This document shows, piece by piece, positions 483-14,754 of a stretch of DNA of 57,576 nucleotides (position 1 is the stretch's first letter; every line of letters starts with the position of its first letter). The stretch is from Myxococcales bacterium. Lineage in GTDB: Bacteria > Myxococcota > Myxococcia > Myxococcales > JAKAPL01. The stretch is taken from assembly GCA_021783235.1 (NCBI GenBank), contig JAJXUD010000026.1, positions 1 through 57,576 of the forward strand, in the 5' to 3' direction. Under the pieces are notes generated by a model, which did not search any database, was not told where the DNA came from, and worked only from the letters and a program-made list of their open reading frames with translations. Position numbers and translations under genes: made by a program.

Positions 483-1793
483 TCATTTCGGAGTCAGCTT
501 AAAGAGCCCATCGGCGCTCCAATAGATACTCGTCCGATCCACGGCGAGCCCGCCAGGGGCTAGCTGAGAGGAGGCGAGAAGCCTCAGCGCTCCTCCCAGC
601 TTTGCGACACTCAGGACCGCGCCGTTAGTCCAATTGTATGCCCCACTTCCGTTAGTCGTCCAGTAGACTCGATCTCCGTCAAGGGCGAGACCATAGGCTG
701 GGGAGCTTTGCCCGGTCGCAAGAGAGACTGGGTCGCCTCCGTCTTTCGGCATCTTCAGGATGACGCCATTGGGCCCACTGCGCGTCCAATAGACCCAATC
801 CTGGTCGACCTGAATGCGGGAGGCATAGAGCTGGTTGCCCGCGAGCAGCTGAGGAGGGCCACCCGCAAGGGGCGCTCGCATCACGCTACCATCCTCGAAA
901 CCGTTCTCGATGGTGCCTTGGTTCGTCCAATATACCCAGGTCGAATCGACGGCGATTCCGATAGGGGTCGGCTGGTGCGTGGCCAATGCGATCGGCGTTC
1001 CGCCTTGGCGGCTCAGCCGCATGATCACGCCATCCTGGTACCCGGCGTCGCTCGTTCCTTCGTTCGTCCAGTAGAGATTGTCAACATCCCCGACGATGGC
1101 AAACGGGTTCGCCTGTCCCCCTGCGAGGACGTTTGGCGATGATCCATTCGTGGTGCATGTGAAGATGTCACCGGCCCAGGATGCCCAGAAGAGATCGGCG
1201 CCGAGCAGGATGAGCTGATTGCCCGGATGCTGACCCTCCAAGAGAGTTTCCGGCCCGCCATTCTTCGGAATCTTCTTGAGAAGCGGGTCCAGCATGTAGA
1301 CGCTCGCCGAATCGACGACGATCCCGTCTGGGTCAGCCCCAGGCGCAAGGGTGACCAGGCAGCCGGTCTGCGTCACCGCCCCGTCGCAGGGTTCACAGCT
1401 CCCGAGATCGCAGAAGTCTCCCGCTGGGCAGGCCTTCCCGCAGGCGCCGCAGTGACCCGGATCTCGACAGGCGTCGATGCTTGCCGGAGGCGTCCCGCAC
1501 GACAACTGGTCATTGCAGGGCGAGCCTCCATCACCGATGATGGCCCCAGCGTCGCCCGGGCCCGTCGCCCCGTTCGAGCCGCCGCTGGTGGTGCTCCCAC
1601 CGCCCGTCGTGGAGCTTCCCGCTCCGCTGCTGCCCCCGGACGTGGTCCCAAAGGACGCCGCCGTCGCCGAACCCGAGCTTCCCCCAGCGCTCGGAGGCCT
1701 GCTGCCTGCCGCCCCCCCTCCCGAGCCACCCATTCCACCGCACGCGTTCGCGGCAGCCATCGCGGCGATCAACCCAAAGCCGTCGAATCTCAT
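483..1793 (-). CDS. exported Cys-rich protein with YWT beta-propeller (DUF5050-like)
   Basis: This is a 436-residue secreted protein, probably a lipoprotein. The N terminus is hydrophobic (LIAAMAAANAC), with a weak lipobox ending at Cys18, followed by about 60 residues of Gly/Ser/Thr low-complexity linker. A Cys-rich block at about 95-140 contains the GHCGACGKAC pattern found repeatedly in myxobacterial surface proteins. The rest carries at least five VYWTN/LYWTN repeats, each with a downstream GG.P or AL.GG element, typical of DUF5050-type six-bladed propellers. A binding or scaffolding role at the cell surface is inference. No catalytic residues can be assigned. The ATG at 1793 is preceded by a G-rich stretch that could serve as the ribosome site. 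Confidence 0.8.
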   Translation of the reverse strand: MRFDGFGLIAAMAAANACGGMGGSGGGAAGSRPPSAGGSSGSATAASFGTTSGGSSGAGSSTTGGGSTTSGGSNGATGPGDAGAIIGDGGSPCNDQLSCGTPPASIDACRDPGHCGACGKACPAGDFCDLGSCEPCDGAVTQTGCLVTLAPGADPDGIVVDSASVYMLDPLLKKIPKNGGPETLLEGQHPGNQLILLGADLFWASWAGDIFTCTTNGSSPNVLAGGQANPFAIVGDVDNLYWTNEGTSDAGYQDGVIMRLSRQGGTPIALATHQPTPIGIAVDSTWVYWTNQGTIENGFEDGSVMRAPLAGGPPQLLAGNQLYASRIQVDQDWVYWTRSGPNGVILKMPKDGGDPVSLATGQSSPAYGLALDGDRVYWTTNGSGAYNWTNGAVLSVAKLGGALRLLASSQLAPGGLAVDRTSIYWSADGLFKLTPK

Positions 1794-2315
1794 GCCCTCG
1801 CCCCCCGGCCAGGTCCTCGAGTATTTCGAAGCTTAGGGATTCGTGGGCTCGAACGGCGTGGCCCCCCCCCTGCGGCAAGGAGAAAATCACCCAGAGCCGG
1901 CCGCTGCTGGCGAGCGACGAGCCTGAGCTCAGCCGGGCTGCGCTCCCGGCGGGCGAGGTCGAAGGCCCTCTGTCGCCATCGCCCCCGTCCGCCCAGGCCC
2001 GCTGCGCCTGGGCTCTCGCCCGATGTCGGAAGCCCAAAGGCATGCTTCCGTTGCGATGAAGAGTTCCCATAGGCTATCTTAATCTTGGCATGAAAGGAGC
2101 ACCAAAGGCTGTGTTGACGCCGGGAGGCGCAGCTCGAGAGGGCTCCGCAGCAGCGCGCCCTGCTGGATGCCCAGGTTGACCGCGCTCCGCCCGCTGGCGG
2201 AGAACGCTCTCGTCCCACCGCGTCGCGGATGGTTCAAGGCGGTTCGCTAGGGCCTCGGCATGGCCGCCTCGGGGCAGCGCCGCGGGAGGACGAGGCGCGG
2301 CATGAGGGAGTCCGA
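1794..2315. other. 522-base intergenic region without a recognised gene
   Basis: This gap separates the divergent propeller gene and ATPase gene. Short frames exist on both strands, but none shows domain motifs, a good ribosome site or a coherent protein composition. It contains a nine-base C run at 1862-1870 and a sigma-54-like element at 2086-2100. The left boundary of the accessory ATPase module probably lies here, but I see no direct repeat, tRNA fragment or integrase. Confidence 0.5.
2086..2100 (+). promoter_or_regulatory. possible sigma-54 (-24/-12) promoter element
   Basis: TGGCATG-N4-GAGC matches the TGGCACG-N4-TTGC consensus at the GG and GC dinucleotides with the required spacing, but misses both T residues of the -12 element. 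It points toward the ATPase gene, whose ATG is 215 bases downstream. One such match in a window this size can arise by chance. Confidence 0.2.
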
Positions 2316-4013
2316 ATGACGATCAGCGATGACGCCCGCGCTCTCCTGCAGGAGGTTCTGGAGCAACTCTACCGGCCGGAGTCGCCGCAGTTCCCAGCGG
2401 TGCAGGCATTTCGGCTGAGCCACGAATCGAAGCGTCCGTTGCTCGACGAGCTCTTCTCCAGCGAGCACCTCAAGGGCGACGGCCGCCGGTATCTACTTTC
2501 CATCAAGGGACTCCTTGCTTGCGGGTCGACCGACGCGAGGCGCGAAGTGGAGGCGTGCGACGCGCTCCTGCCTGAGCTCAAGGATGCCTACCGTTCCGCG
2601 CCGCAAGAGAAGTGGTCGGTGGACGAGCTCTCCCGGCGCACAGGGAAGAGCATCGCCGAAGTGGCGAAGAACCTGACCTTCCTTGCCGAGCGTCCCATCT
2701 TCAGCTGGCTCGAGCGTGACCAGACGACGGGCCTCGTGAACGGCATGCAGCTTTCGGAGGGTGTTCTAGACGCCGAACCCATCGGTTGGCACGAGGACGA
2801 CCCAGCCCCGGACGGCGAGGTCGCGGCGCCCAATGGCCTGACCATCGAGGCGATCGAGATCGACGGTTACCGCCCCTTCGCCCACTTTCAGGCGCAGCCC
2901 AAGAACCTGACGGTGATCATCGGCGCGAACGCGAGCGGCAAGTCGAGCCTGTTCGACTTCCTTCGGTTCGTGAGCTTCGCCGCGTCGAACCCGCTGCCGC
3001 GCGAGATCGATCCGCGGTCCGCCGGCAAGACGCTGTTTCACGTCGGCGGGCCGGAGCGGATCGACTTCGCCCTCGTCGTGGACCAGGGCCAGCGGAAGCC
3101 GCTGCGCTATCAGGTCGAGATCCAAGGCCCGGGCCCGGTCGGCAACCCGCGAGTCGTCCGCGAGCGCCTCGCAACTACGGAGCCGCTGACTTCAGGTGAG
3201 AAGGAGCCGTTCATCTTCCTCGACTTCCAAGGCGGCAAGGGGGTCGTCCGCGACCAGGTCGAGCGAAAGCTCAAGCGGCCCGAGTGGACGGTGCAACCGA
3301 ACGAGTTGGCTCTTCGACGGGCACTCGACCCCACGCTGGTCACGCTCTCGAGGTTCCAGGGCTTTTTGTCCTCGTGGCGGTTCTACTCCGGGTTCGACGT
3401 TTCCGGCAGCGCGGCGATCCGCAGACCCGTGCCGACCGATCCCAATCCCACCCTTGCCGAGGACGGGTCGAACCTGAGCGCGGTGCTGTTCTCGCTCATG
3501 ACCGAGCAGCAGGATGCGTGGCAGGAGCTCGAGACGCACCTGCGGTCTGCGATTCCCGGCTTCCGGTCCCTCAACGTGAAGCCGCGCGGGGGATCGGGCA
3601 CCGTCATTGGCTTCTGGCGCGAACTTGGCGTGAAGGACGAACTGGTGCTCGGGGACCTGTCCGATGGGACGCTGAGGTTGCTCTGCTGGGCGACCCTCTG
3701 CCTCGCTCCCTCCATCCCCCCGCTCGTCTGCATCGACGAGCCGGAGCTTGGACTCCATCCGCGGGTCCTGCCGATCCTCGCCGGCCTGCTACGCCTCGCG
3801 GCTGCGCGCAGCCAGCTCTTGGTCGCGACCCACTCGCCCTACCTGCTCTCGCAGTTCACGCTCGACGAGATCGCCGTCATGCGGAAGGAGGACGGCCGCG
3901 CCGTGTTCGTTCGCCCCGGAGACAGCAGAGCGCTTCGCCGGGAAGTTGAAGAGCTTGGGGGAGACGCGCTCTCGCAGCTCCACATCTCCGACGAGCTCGA
4001 GGTGCGCTCGTGA
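2316..4013 (+). CDS. AAA family ATPase (AAA_21/OLD-like) of a putative defence pair
   Basis: This 565-residue ABC-type ATPase of the SMC/OLD-like class has Walker A GANASGKS at 203-210, Walker B VCIDEPELGLHP at about 471-482, and the switch motif ATHS at about 504-507. The first ~190 residues are an extra helical region including a helix-turn-helix-like segment at about 99-135 (WSVDELSRRTGKSIAEV). Such ATPases usually begin directly with the P-loop domain. The ATG at 2316 was chosen for the GAGGGAG five bases upstream; an in-frame start at 2229 lacks one. Its stop overlaps the GTG start of the DUF4276-like gene by four bases, so the two are probably translated together. By analogy with OLD/TOPRIM and PARIS-type systems, a phage-sensing or nucleic-acid-linked defence role is inferred, not shown. 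Confidence 0.85.
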   Translation: MTISDDARALLQEVLEQLYRPESPQFPAVQAFRLSHESKRPLLDELFSSEHLKGDGRRYLLSIKGLLACGSTDARREVEACDALLPELKDAYRSAPQEKWSVDELSRRTGKSIAEVAKNLTFLAERPIFSWLERDQTTGLVNGMQLSEGVLDAEPIGWHEDDPAPDGEVAAPNGLTIEAIEIDGYRPFAHFQAQPKNLTVIIGANASGKSSLFDFLRFVSFAASNPLPREIDPRSAGKTLFHVGGPERIDFALVVDQGQRKPLRYQVEIQGPGPVGNPRVVRERLATTEPLTSGEKEPFIFLDFQGGKGVVRDQVERKLKRPEWTVQPNELALRRALDPTLVTLSRFQGFLSSWRFYSGFDVSGSAAIRRPVPTDPNPTLAEDGSNLSAVLFSLMTEQQDAWQELETHLRSAIPGFRSLNVKPRGGSGTVIGFWRELGVKDELVLGDLSDGTLRLLCWATLCLAPSIPPLVCIDEPELGLHPRVLPILAGLLRLAAARSQLLVATHSPYLLSQFTLDEIAVMRKEDGRAVFVRPGDSRALRREVEELGGDALSQLHISDELEVRS

Positions 4014-4678
4014 GAGTCCTCGTCTACGTCGAGGGGCCATCTGATCGGGCGGCCCTCGAGGCTCTCTTGGAGCCCGTCATCTCCGCCGGACGGGAGCGGC
4101 GCGTTGGGCTTCGCTTCCTGGTGCTGAACGACAAGGCGTCGATCTTGAAGGACAGCGGACGCAAGGCTGCCGACCACCTTTCAGACAACCCCGGCGACTG
4201 GGTGTTCGCGCTTCCGGACCTCTACCCGATGTCGGTCTACGACGGGACCCCCGAGCAGCATCGCTCGTTCGCAGAGCTTGATGAGCTCTTGAGGTCACGC
4301 TTCCGGGCGCGTGCGGCGAGGGTGGGCGTTCCCGAGGCCGCGAGGAACCACTTCCGAGTCCACTGCCTGAAGTACGACCTGGAGGGCTTGCTTCTCGCGG
4401 CGCCCGACGCGCTCAAGCGGCGCCTCCAGACCGCCGACACGCTCAATAACCACTGGCGCAGACCCGTCGAGGACCAGAACGACAACAACCCGCCCAAGCG
4501 CGTCGTCGAGGGGCTCTTCGAGAAGTACCGGAGGAAGCCCAAGTACACCGACACGACCGATGCCCCATGGATCTTGAAGCGGACGCCTCTTGAGACCGTC
4601 GTCGCGGCCTGCTCGCAGCGCTTCGCGCCGTTCGTGGCGGAGCTCGCGGCACTCGCGAACGGGAGCGCGCCAACGTGA
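4010..4678 (+). CDS. DUF4276-like TOPRIM-fold protein, partner of the upstream ATPase
   Basis: The product is 222 residues. It starts VLVYVEGPSDRAALEALL (Glu8), the typical opening of DUF4276/TOPRIM-like proteins. An acidic position follows the next strand (VFALPD, Asp70), and a conserved Glu sits in a helix (KYDLEGLLLA, Glu125). TOPRIM folds use such acidic residues to bind metal in nucleases and topoisomerases, so metal-dependent nucleic-acid cleavage is the likely activity. This is family inference. The start is GTG, overlapping the ATPase stop in the sequence GTGA with no separate ribosome site, which implies translational coupling. The gene ends about 60 bases before the convergent queG. 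Confidence 0.8.
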   Translation: MRVLVYVEGPSDRAALEALLEPVISAGRERRVGLRFLVLNDKASILKDSGRKAADHLSDNPGDWVFALPDLYPMSVYDGTPEQHRSFAELDELLRSRFRARAARVGVPEAARNHFRVHCLKYDLEGLLLAAPDALKRRLQTADTLNNHWRRPVEDQNDNNPPKRVVEGLFEKYRRKPKYTDTTDAPWILKRTPLETVVAACSQRFAPFVAELAALANGSAPT

Positions 4679-4738
4679 TGGTGGACGGTCGTGGCGGGCG
4701 CTCGAACCAGAAGGAGAAGCAGCGATGGGCGGAGCGGG

Positions 4739-5767
4739 CTAGCCGAGCCGCCTCGCCACCCAGCGGGCGGTCTCGGAGACCACCTCCGAGGGGTCGTCCT
4801 CGAGCCGCTCGCAGGCCTCCCGCGCGTCCGCGCCGCCCTCGCGGAGCAGCCCGAGGAGGGCGCTGCGGCGCAGCCCGTCGAAGCCGGCGCGGCGCAGGGG
4901 CGAGCCGCGGGCGTGCCGCTCGAACTGCTCGGGCGAGAGCCCCGCGAGCGCGGAGCAGCGGAGCTCCACGATGGGGCGCGGCGCGAAGTCCGGGAGGCTC
5001 GCGGTCGCGGGCGAGCGGTTCCACGGGCAGGCGTTTTGGCAGTCGTCGCAGCCGAAGGTCCAGCGGGAGGTCGCGGGGCGAAGCTCCTCGGGGATCGACC
5101 GCTCCGTCTCGATGGTCCAGTAGGAGAGGCAGCGGCGCGAGTCGAGCCGACCCTCGCCGAGCAGCGCCCCGGTGGGGCAGGCGGGCAGGCAGTCGGCGCA
5201 GCTCCCGCAGCGGTTCGGCTGCGGCTCGTCGGGCGCGAGCTCGAGATCGGTGACGAGCGTCGCGAGCAGGACCCACGAGCCGTGCTCGGGCGTCAGGAGG
5301 AGCCCGTTCTTGCCGATCCAGCCGAGCCCCGCCCGCTGCGCCCAGATCTTCTCCATCACGGGGCTGGTGTCGGTGGAGGGGTGGATCCGGGCGCCCGGCG
5401 CGGCGCGCAGGAGCCGCCGGCGCAGCCGCCGGAGCCGCTTCTGGAGGAACTGGTGGTAGTCGCGCCCCTGCGCGTAGCGGGCGATGCCGGGCCGGGCGTC
5501 GGGGCGCCAGTAGGCGACGGCGAGGGCGACGACCGAGCGCGCGCCCGGCAGGAGCACGCGGGGGTCCAGCCGCTCGTCGAGGCGGCGGCGCAGGTAGGCC
5601 ATCTCCGCCTCGCGCCCCTCGGCGAGGAAGCGGCGCAGCTCCTCGCCGTCGAGCGGCTCGGCCCGCGCGACCCCGCAGAGGTCGAAGCCGAGCGCGCGCG
5701 CCTCCGCCTTCACCGCGGCCGCGAGCGGCCCCGGCTCAACCCGGCCGTTCGGCGATCCAGGGGACAT
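4739..5767 (-). CDS. queG: epoxyqueuosine reductase QueG
   Basis: QueG catalyses the last step of queuosine tRNA modification, reducing epoxyqueuosine to queuosine with cobalamin and two [4Fe-4S] clusters in the cytoplasm. The 342-residue length is normal. Visible motifs are the ferredoxin pair CGSCADCLPAC (Cys187, 190, 193, 197) and CDDCQNACPW (Cys240, 243, 247), the STDTSP segment containing the likely catalytic Asp133, and a C-terminal helical-repeat segment. The ATG lies inside the 3' end of the cobalamin adenosyltransferase gene (32-base overlap), so the two form an operon, and both products work with cobalamin. Confidence 0.95.
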   Translation of the reverse strand: MSPGSPNGRVEPGPLAAAVKAEARALGFDLCGVARAEPLDGEELRRFLAEGREAEMAYLRRRLDERLDPRVLLPGARSVVALAVAYWRPDARPGIARYAQGRDYHQFLQKRLRRLRRRLLRAAPGARIHPSTDTSPVMEKIWAQRAGLGWIGKNGLLLTPEHGSWVLLATLVTDLELAPDEPQPNRCGSCADCLPACPTGALLGEGRLDSRRCLSYWTIETERSIPEELRPATSRWTFGCDDCQNACPWNRSPATASLPDFAPRPIVELRCSALAGLSPEQFERHARGSPLRRAGFDGLRRSALLGLLREGGADAREACERLEDDPSEVVSETARWVARRLG

Positions 5768-12919: not shown

Positions 12920-13504
12920 TCAGGTGGCGCGGTCGTCTTTCAGTGCCGTCAGTATCCGGTCGCGCAGCCTCCCGAGGCACGGAAGTGCCTCGAGTAGATT
13001 GCCGCGAGTCTGGCGATACCCCGGCTTGCTCGCGCGCTCGAAGATTCGATCTCGGGCGACGCGAACCTTGGCAATGGCATCGTCGAAGAGCGCTTGCTCG
13101 AGACCCAGCTGTCGTGCCTCTGGCTCGAGGGCCGTGATGATGGATTCGACGTTTCGTTCCAAGAGGACGATTGTCAGCCGCTCGGGGACATCACATCCTT
13201 TGGTGAGGGCCTCGATCACCTGCCTTCGGCAAGCGCCCTTGTCCAATGACAATGCCGTTCTGATCTTGTCTTCATCGGGGACTGCGATCACCGTCTGGCC
13301 CCCGGGAGCGACAGTTTCGAGATCCCGAGCCATCTTGATCAGGTTGCCATTCGAGTTCGTGGTCCGAGCGTCGATCAGAGGGGCCACTTTCCAAGTGTCC
13401 TCCTCCAGCAGATCGGCGACCAGGGCGACCACCAGTTGATGTGGGCCAAAGTCGGCACCCGACACCCGGCTGTCTTCGTAGAGGACGACGACCATCGGTT
13501 TCAC
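12920..13504 (-). CDS. TOPRIM/DUF4276-like protein, partner of AAA ATPase
   Basis: This 194-residue protein is of no firmly recognised family. Its skeleton follows the DUF4276/TOPRIM pattern: MVVVLYED (Glu10) at the end of strand 1, VIAVPDEDK (Asp77, Asp79) at the end of a later strand, and a helix with LLERNVESII (Glu116/Glu120). These align by position with Glu8, Asp70 and Glu125 of the protein at 4010-4678, although overall identity is low. A metal-dependent nuclease-like role is inferred. The GTG start overlaps the stop of the ATPase gene as GTGA, so the pair is translationally coupled. Composition is less GC-rich than the flanking genes, suggesting acquisition. Confidence 0.65.
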   Translation of the reverse strand: MKPMVVVLYEDSRVSGADFGPHQLVVALVADLLEEDTWKVAPLIDARTTNSNGNLIKMARDLETVAPGGQTVIAVPDEDKIRTALSLDKGACRRQVIEALTKGCDVPERLTIVLLERNVESIITALEPEARQLGLEQALFDDAIAKVRVARDRIFERASKPGYRQTRGNLLEALPCLGRLRDRILTALKDDRAT

Positions 13505-14754
13505 CCGGTGTCTCCGGCTGGTCGGAACACCGCCGCCTCATGCCCTCCGGCGCGCAATTCAGCAAATCCGGCATAGTTCTTGCGCCAGCGGGTCAGAGCC
13601 TCAGCGTCTGGGTGGGTCAAGACCGTGCGGCCCTTTGAGTCGAGGCTGCACAGGATGACGGAGTTCACCGGGTCCGAGAGGGCATCGAGGAGGGCATCCG
13701 AGTGGGTGGCGAGCAGCACCGGTTGCTGGCGTCCTAGCGACTCGTAGAACGAGACGACTCGGGCGAGGAGCCGAGGGTGAAGGTGAACCTCCGGCTCGTC
13801 AAAAGCGAGCAGAGCGGGTCGTGCCCGCAGTCGGTAGAGCGCGACGTGGGCGAGGTAGGCCAGCGTTCCTTCCGAAATGGCGGCAGCCGGCACCGGATCA
13901 CGAAGCCCACGGAGCCGCAGCGCCAACGCCACCGCTCCGCCACTCGGATCCGGAGGGAAGACGACCTCCTGGATCGCTTCTCCAAGCCCCATTTGAATGA
14001 GCTCCAGCGTCTCTTCCCACCGGTCCGCCCCATCATTCCTGAGCGAATGATAGGCGTTGGCCAGATTCTTCCCATACCGGGAGAGAGTCTCCGCTGGTTG
14101 CAGCAATTCGGACTCGCGTAGGTGGGACCGAAGCTTTTGCTCGCGTAGCGCCCAGGCTGGTCGTACGTCGAACGGCAGGTGAACCTGAATCGACGACAGG
14201 AGCTTTGCCACCAACTCGCGAGCCGGCTGCCGAAACGGAATCCCTACCCCACTGAGAATCGTTGACGTGGAGGACGCGTCGGTTGGGTCAATCAGTTGCC
14301 CCTGGACTGGGTCGAAGACCTTGATGGATGCGCCCGAACGCCGAATGACATGGAGCGGCTCGGTCTTGCCCGGCATGGGGCCGTAATCCAACCGCTCTCG
14401 CTCGATCGCGACCGCACCATTCTGCTCGATGAGCGAAAGCTCATAAGAGAAGGGGCGCTCCGGGTCTTTCTCCGACGCCTTGGCGTCACGTCCTTTCACG
14501 GCAAATTGGATGCGCTGTGCCCCCTGCTGGCGGAGCCAGAAAAAGCCGCCATGAATTCCCATTAGCTGATCGGTGAAGTCGGTCTTCGGAATTCGACTCA
14601 GGATCTCGCAAGCTTCGATGAGCGAACTCTTGCCAGAGCCATTCGTTCCAATGAGGACCTTGAGCCCATCGAGAGGGAGCGTCACATCTTCCAGGGAGCG
14701 GATTCCCTGGATTCGGATTTCGCTGATCCTCGCGTCCAACGCCTCGGGCGGCAT
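13501..14754 (-). CDS. AAA family ATPase (AAA_21-like), second ATPase/TOPRIM module
   Basis: This 417-residue ABC-type ATPase has Walker A GTNGSGKS at 36-43, a Q-loop region after it, Walker B LLAFDEPEVHLHP at about 315-327, and the ATHS switch at about 349-352. The C terminus has the LTRWRKNYAGFAELRAGG segment often seen in this group. Unlike the ATPase at 2316-4013 it begins directly with the P-loop domain. It overlaps the downstream TOPRIM-like gene by four bases (GTGA). The ATG has GAGG about six bases upstream. A defence role is plausible from the architecture but untested. The gene sits between core genes in a distinctly less GC-rich patch. Confidence 0.85.
   Translation of the reverse strand: MPPEALDARISEIRIQGIRSLEDVTLPLDGLKVLIGTNGSGKSSLIEACEILSRIPKTDFTDQLMGIHGGFFWLRQQGAQRIQFAVKGRDAKASEKDPERPFSYELSLIEQNGAVAIERERLDYGPMPGKTEPLHVIRRSGASIKVFDPVQGQLIDPTDASSTSTILSGVGIPFRQPARELVAKLLSSIQVHLPFDVRPAWALREQKLRSHLRESELLQPAETLSRYGKNLANAYHSLRNDGADRWEETLELIQMGLGEAIQEVVFPPDPSGGAVALALRLRGLRDPVPAAAISEGTLAYLAHVALYRLRARPALLAFDEPEVHLHPRLLARVVSFYESLGRQQPVLLATHSDALLDALSDPVNSVILCSLDSKGRTVLTHPDAEALTRWRKNYAGFAELRAGGHEAAVFRPAGDTG

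Follow-up and report, generated by a model that had tools for sequence, protein, structure and literature searches.

A conserved TOPRIM-like partner family encoded behind an OLD-type ABC ATPase in a Myxococcales bacterium

Results

The gene pair

The window analyzed here is a whole stretch of 57,576 nucleotides from a Myxococcales bacterium (contig JAJXUD010000026.1). It contains, on the reverse strand, a gene for an ATPase followed by a gene for a smaller partner protein, the stop codon of the first overlapping the start codon of the second (Table 1). The open reading frames, strands, GTG start and overlap given for this locus in a first-pass annotation are all borne out on the sequence. Such overlaps are ordinary in genomes of this kind, and pairs of an ATPase with a DUF4276 protein often overlap as well. 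The partner is present in a single copy in its own genome.

Table 1 Features of the ATPase-partner module, in window coordinates.
Feature	Position	Strand	Basis or remarks
OLD-type ABC ATPase, 417 aa, first gene, proposed sensor/regulator subunit	13501..14754	-	Pfam and PADLOC matches
TOPRIM-like partner, 194 aa, second gene, GTG start, putative nuclease effector	12920..13504	-	Model, conserved acids, distant DUF4276 profile match
GTGA overlap, ATPase stop TGA/partner start GTG	13501..13504	-	Sequence
Walker A GTNGSGKS, ATPase residues 36-43	14626..14649	-	G36, N38, G39, G41, K42, S43 invariant (nine clade ATPases)
ABC-signature-like SEGT, ATPase residues 294-297	13864..13875	-	S294, G296 invariant (nine clade ATPases)
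Walker B and OLD-type LLAFDEPEVHLHP, ATPase residues 315-327	13774..13812	-	D319, E320, H324, H326, P327 invariant
H-switch THS, ATPase residues 350-352	13699..13707	-	T350, S352 invariant
Partner motif 1, E10-D11, end of strand 1	13472..13477	-	12/12 invariant; model strand 5-10
Partner H22, helix 1, FGxH motif	13439..13441	-	Invariant
Partner motif 2, D77-x-D79, after strand 3	13268..13276	-	Invariant; model strand 71-75
Partner motif 3, N118-x-E120, start of helix after strand 4	13145..13153	-	Model helix 119-129
Partner R151-D152, C-terminal helical part	13049..13054	-	Each 11/12

The first gene product matches the Pfam families AAA_21 (5e-24) and AAA_15 and, among the PADLOC models, HEC-01A (1.2e-41, the best match), AriA (1.4e-22), AbiLi (2e-15) and GajA. 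The profile of the ATPase clade to which it belongs (see below) matches the solved structures of PtuA, TsOLD and AriA. Walker A, a signature-like motif, a DEPExxLHP Walker B and an H-switch are all intact in the sequence and coincide with invariant columns of the alignment, which identifies the protein as an ATPase of the OLD-type ABC class.

Conserved residues of the partner family

The 194-residue partner had no match in Pfam, NCBIfam or PADLOC, and did not reach the DUF4276 (PF14103) gathering score of 30.2 bits. None of the family members had a significant match in PADLOC or PHROGs, and a sequence search of the PDB recovered no relative of the partner and likewise none of DUF4276. The literature search found no activity test of the partner family, and a search by name on HEC-01 and DUF4276 found nothing relevant. 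The partner is nonetheless a real, conserved family: across the 12 aligned members, E10, D11, H22, D31, D77, D79 and N118 are invariant, position 120 is always E or D, and R151 and D152 are each retained in all members but one.

The first-pass annotation had pointed to Glu10, Asp77/79 and Glu116/120 as acidic positions shared with a DUF4276 protein encoded elsewhere in the window. The first three are invariant and position 120 is always acidic, but position 116 varies (E/V/K/D), so that this part of the residue list is wrong. E116 is thereby ruled out as a catalytic residue. The list also lacked the invariant D11, H22, D31 and N118 and the near-invariant R151-D152. On the side of the DUF4276 protein, the three acids named (E8, D70 and E125) are invariant in an alignment of six sequences.

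Distribution, linkage and ATPase phylogeny

Whole-genome searches of the phylum, which is Myxococcota going by the named records that match these genomes, detected relatives of the partner in 12 of the 195 genomes with a single sequence as the query and in 13 of the 189 genomes with a profile. A single-sequence partner search of genome contigs returned no relatives, and there was no match to the partner on plasmids, phages or viral contigs. The full-length members number 14, all from Myxococcota among named records. A pattern scan covering one genome per species (~85,000 species) yielded five loci, all named Myxococcota or Deltaproteobacteria. The scan was built on a five-row alignment, the 12-row alignment being too diverse; because it demands near-exact motifs, confinement of the family to Myxococcota is suggested rather than shown.

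In all 14 full-length loci, the partner gene lies directly behind an ATPase gene with a stop/start overlap of 1 or 4 nucleotides, a linkage beyond chance. In a maximum-likelihood tree of 50 ATPases, the 15 that precede a partner gene (including one with a truncated partner and one with only a C-terminal partner piece) form a single clade (support 100/100), distinct from the ATPases of three DUF4276-paired groups and of one RloB-paired group. Thus, the ATPase clades match the partner types, that is, partner type and ATPase lineage are inherited together.

Several copies are damaged. At one locus (L013, G064:C292), an intact ATPase is followed by a partner missing approximately its first 58 residues; at another (L066, G155:C661), an open ATPase gene stands beside a C-terminal partner piece only; at a third (L014, G070:C42), the partner is in two parts. 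An effector that is lost ahead of its ATPase would be consistent with toxicity of the effector, although errors in draft assemblies may also account for the damage.

Relation to DUF4276, RloB and DUF4435

To place the partner among known families, profiles were compared. With hhalign, the partner family aligned over its full length (174 columns) to a profile of 24 DUF4276 proteins from the phylum, with a score of 39.9 and an E-value of 2.5e-5, against at most 19.2 for 30 column-shuffled decoys and 11.4 for the reversed control. Across aligners and directions, the score ranged from 31 to 44 (decoys, at most 21). When the D1 or the D3 subgroup of DUF4276 was left out, the score fell to 21-27, near the decoys. 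The comparison between RloB and DUF4276 gave similar values (28-45), and the partner family compared with RloB alone and with DUF4435 alone scored at decoy level. Thus, of the two profile comparisons proposed in the first-pass annotation, that with DUF4276 gave a moderate, subgroup-dependent signal and that with DUF4435 gave none above the decoys. Among searches with single members, one of the 12 matched DUF4276 (E 0.006) and one matched AbiLii (0.039). Given a full-length score that exceeds the decoys but depends on the subgroups included, the partner family is probably, as judged from these alignments, a distant cousin of DUF4276 lying beyond the curated limits of that family. The earlier view that the two partners belong to different families, only remotely alignable, agrees with this profile match and with the lack of an entry in Pfam, NCBIfam, PADLOC or PHROGs.

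The partner might, conceivably, be no more than a very divergent DUF4276 protein, in which case the module would be a HEC-01-like pair and only its sequence distance would be new. Such a reading draws on the full-length profile match, on HEC-01A as the best ATPase match, and on a gene order and overlap like those of DUF4276 pairs. However, the partner itself matches neither DUF4276 nor HEC-01B, DUF4276 is reached by just the one member, the paired ATPases constitute a separate clade, and the family has invariant residues of its own (LYED, FGxH, NxE). We consider this explanation unlikely.

Genomic context

The GC content of the module is 0.618, compared with 0.725 across the remainder of the window. 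The module lies between an oxidoreductase gene and yggU, with no flanking repeats of note. A second module is located at positions 2229-4678 on the forward strand (GC 0.666) and consists of an OLD-type ATPase, with an N-terminal extension of about 200 residues before the ATPase domain, and a DUF4276 partner, close relatives of which (52-55%) occur in no more than three further genomes of the phylum. Upstream of it, GC content is low over most of positions 1-2200 (0.59-0.72), and an open reading frame of 436 codons (483-1793, reverse strand) has no Pfam or PADLOC match.

The first-pass annotation took the two modules as a sign of a genomic hotspot. Both are low in GC, and the flanking regions recovered from two genomes of the same family carry no copy of either module; because synteny breaks beside the module in both of these genomes, they do not provide a clean empty site. 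On the other side, no tRNA was found near either module, no mobile-element hallmarks were found at them, and their ATPases belong to different clades, the ATPase at 2229-4013 falling on the D1 side of the DUF4276-paired part of the tree (94/92). The hotspot idea is therefore weakly supported: the modules, both low in GC and separated by about 8 kb in one genome, bear no mobile-element marks, and a pair of them is too small a number for a hotspot. The different clades also mean that neither module arose as a recent copy of the other, which rules out a recent duplication of the DUF4276 module. For the module itself, patchy occurrence (13 of the 189 genomes) together with low GC fits horizontal gain.

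In this and in other genomes, most flanking genes of the module are housekeeping genes, e.g. recA or lon, with no defence island; across the other genomes, the neighbours are mixed. This location would suit a chromosomal toxin-antitoxin pair, or a housekeeping pair for DNA repair, that plays no part against phages, as would an archaeal OLD-family ATPase for which a cell-cycle role is reported (PMC12796447). However, the patchy distribution and low GC are at odds with a housekeeping function, and close kin of both parts occur in defence systems, so that this alternative appears unlikely. Related pairs were observed on other replicons: the nearest ATPase on a plasmid (Meiothermus taiwanensis pMtWR-220, 2953-4850, L021) has a DUF4276 partner and lies inside a type I restriction-modification locus, and an IMG/VR contig (892-2654, L103) encodes an ATPase and DUF4276 pair with an ATGA overlap. 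The latter pair is directly behind a putative CI-type repressor gene, as prophage-carried cargo. The largest number of DUF4276 matches among the genomes listed is 10, in a single genome of the phylum (G010).

Predicted fold of the partner

An AlphaFold2 model of the partner, built with six sequences, had a pLDDT of 90.5 and a pTM of 0.87; the corresponding model of the DUF4276 partner from the other module had a pLDDT of 41. By DSSP, the strands of the partner span residues 5-10, 44-49, 71-75 and 110-112; they are followed in turn by helix 20-33, helix 52-65, helices within 78-101 and helix 119-129, after which come helices within 137-193. This is the element order of a TOPRIM domain, four strand-helix repeats, followed by a helical tail. 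The acids lie at the element ends where a TOPRIM site would place them, as E10 closes strand 1, D77 and D79 come directly behind strand 3, and E120 stands at the beginning of the helix after strand 4.

Foldseek searches of the PDB with this model gave nothing below an E-value of 1e-3 and no TOPRIM protein among the top matches, which were weak (RadA/RecA folds, TM about 0.35, and lumazine synthase; E above 0.004, query TM at most 0.37). Among viral models, the one informative match was to an RloB-like protein (probability 0.96, TM 0.44, 202 columns). Thus, the structure prediction called for in the first-pass annotation produced the anticipated element order and acid positions and no TOPRIM match in the PDB. 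Because of the latter, the case for a TOPRIM fold, resting on topology and motifs in place of a strong structural match, is good but not proven. That the partner has instead a Rossmann-like three-layer fold, e.g. of a signalling or nucleotide-binding protein in which the acids bind metal or ligand and no nucleic acid is cut, would explain the RadA/RecA and lumazine synthase matches but is very improbable, considering how weak those matches are, the lack of a Walker A motif in the partner, and an element order, E and D-x-D positions and resemblances to DUF4276 and RloB that all favour TOPRIM.

Discussion

OLD-ABC ATPases paired with nucleases, those of the TOPRIM type among them, have been widely described (PMC12839542, PMC10568477), and the module was compared with the members of this class; in the case of HEC-01, AbiL and PARIS, its second component failed to match each time. 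HEC-01, a PADLOC candidate system of an ATPase and a DUF4276 protein, is similar in ATPase type, gene order and overlap, and its partner is distantly alignable over the full length; however, the module has HEC-01A without HEC-01B, the ATPases are in a separate clade, and the partner retains D-x-D at the place of the D-x-Y seen in the main DUF4276 group. AbiL (AbiLi and AbiLii, RloB/TOPRIM) likewise consists of two genes, for an OLD-type ATPase and a small TOPRIM effector, and shows its likeness to the module in the AbiLi match of the ATPase, the AbiLii match of one partner and the RloB-like viral model, whereas the partner has no RloB (PF13707) or significant AbiLii match and its RloB profile score is at decoy level. 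PARIS (AriA and AriB) also combines a separate OLD-ABC ATPase with a TOPRIM nuclease, and the ATPase of the module matches AriA at the level of both models and structures, whereas the partner has no AriB match and aligns to DUF4435 no better than decoys do. Class 1-3 OLD proteins (P2 Old, GajA, retron effectors) contain the same ABC ATPase and TOPRIM parts (PMC10568477), in one polypeptide as opposed to the two genes found here.

In PARIS, a hexamer of AriA holds AriB, and sensing of a phage protein frees AriB, which cuts tRNA; two metals have been proposed for the AriB TOPRIM site, and an E26A mutant is inactive (PMC12409363). AbiL works by abortive infection, and toxic TOPRIM_OLD partners are neutralised by AAA proteins in expression tests (PMC10440598). 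Taken with these systems, the module is probably a stand-alone two-gene conflict module, in which an OLD-type ABC ATPase is joined by a separate TOPRIM-like nuclease of its own family, a distant cousin of DUF4276. The best reading, by analogy, is a sensor ATPase with a TOPRIM nuclease effector as in AbiL and PARIS, which would imply a function in defence.

Under this AbiL/PARIS-like reading, the overlapping genes would allow the ATPase and partner to be made together and to form a complex, within which an ATPase oligomer would keep the partner from acting. The ATPase might then be altered by a phage product, or by a state caused by the phage, such that the partner is freed or activated. The partner would cut nucleic acid, either RNA or DNA, through a putative metal site formed by E10, D77, D79 and E120, and this cutting would stop the infected cell.

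The suggestion in the first-pass annotation of an undescribed TOPRIM branch is partly upheld: an ATPase is indeed paired with a TOPRIM-like protein whose family has no entry in any of Pfam, NCBIfam, PADLOC and PHROGs, but, given the Foldseek results, the fold is not fully proven. We regard it as plausible, if somewhat short of probable, that the partner represents the first family of such a branch and, with an ATPase clade of its own, belongs to a defence system that has a distinct trigger and nucleic-acid target and is perhaps limited to Myxococcota. The kind of system is already known, and what is absent from the four libraries is the partner family, which may stand under another name in the ABC-ATPase survey of Krishnan et al. 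2020.

ABC ATPase and TOPRIM pairs recur in phage defence. The module described here would escape current defence finders, its partner being absent from all of the libraries searched. The conserved motifs make the partner family searchable, mutable and assayable and, together with the DUF4276 subgroups and RloB, it provides a set for studying the co-evolution of partners and ATPases.
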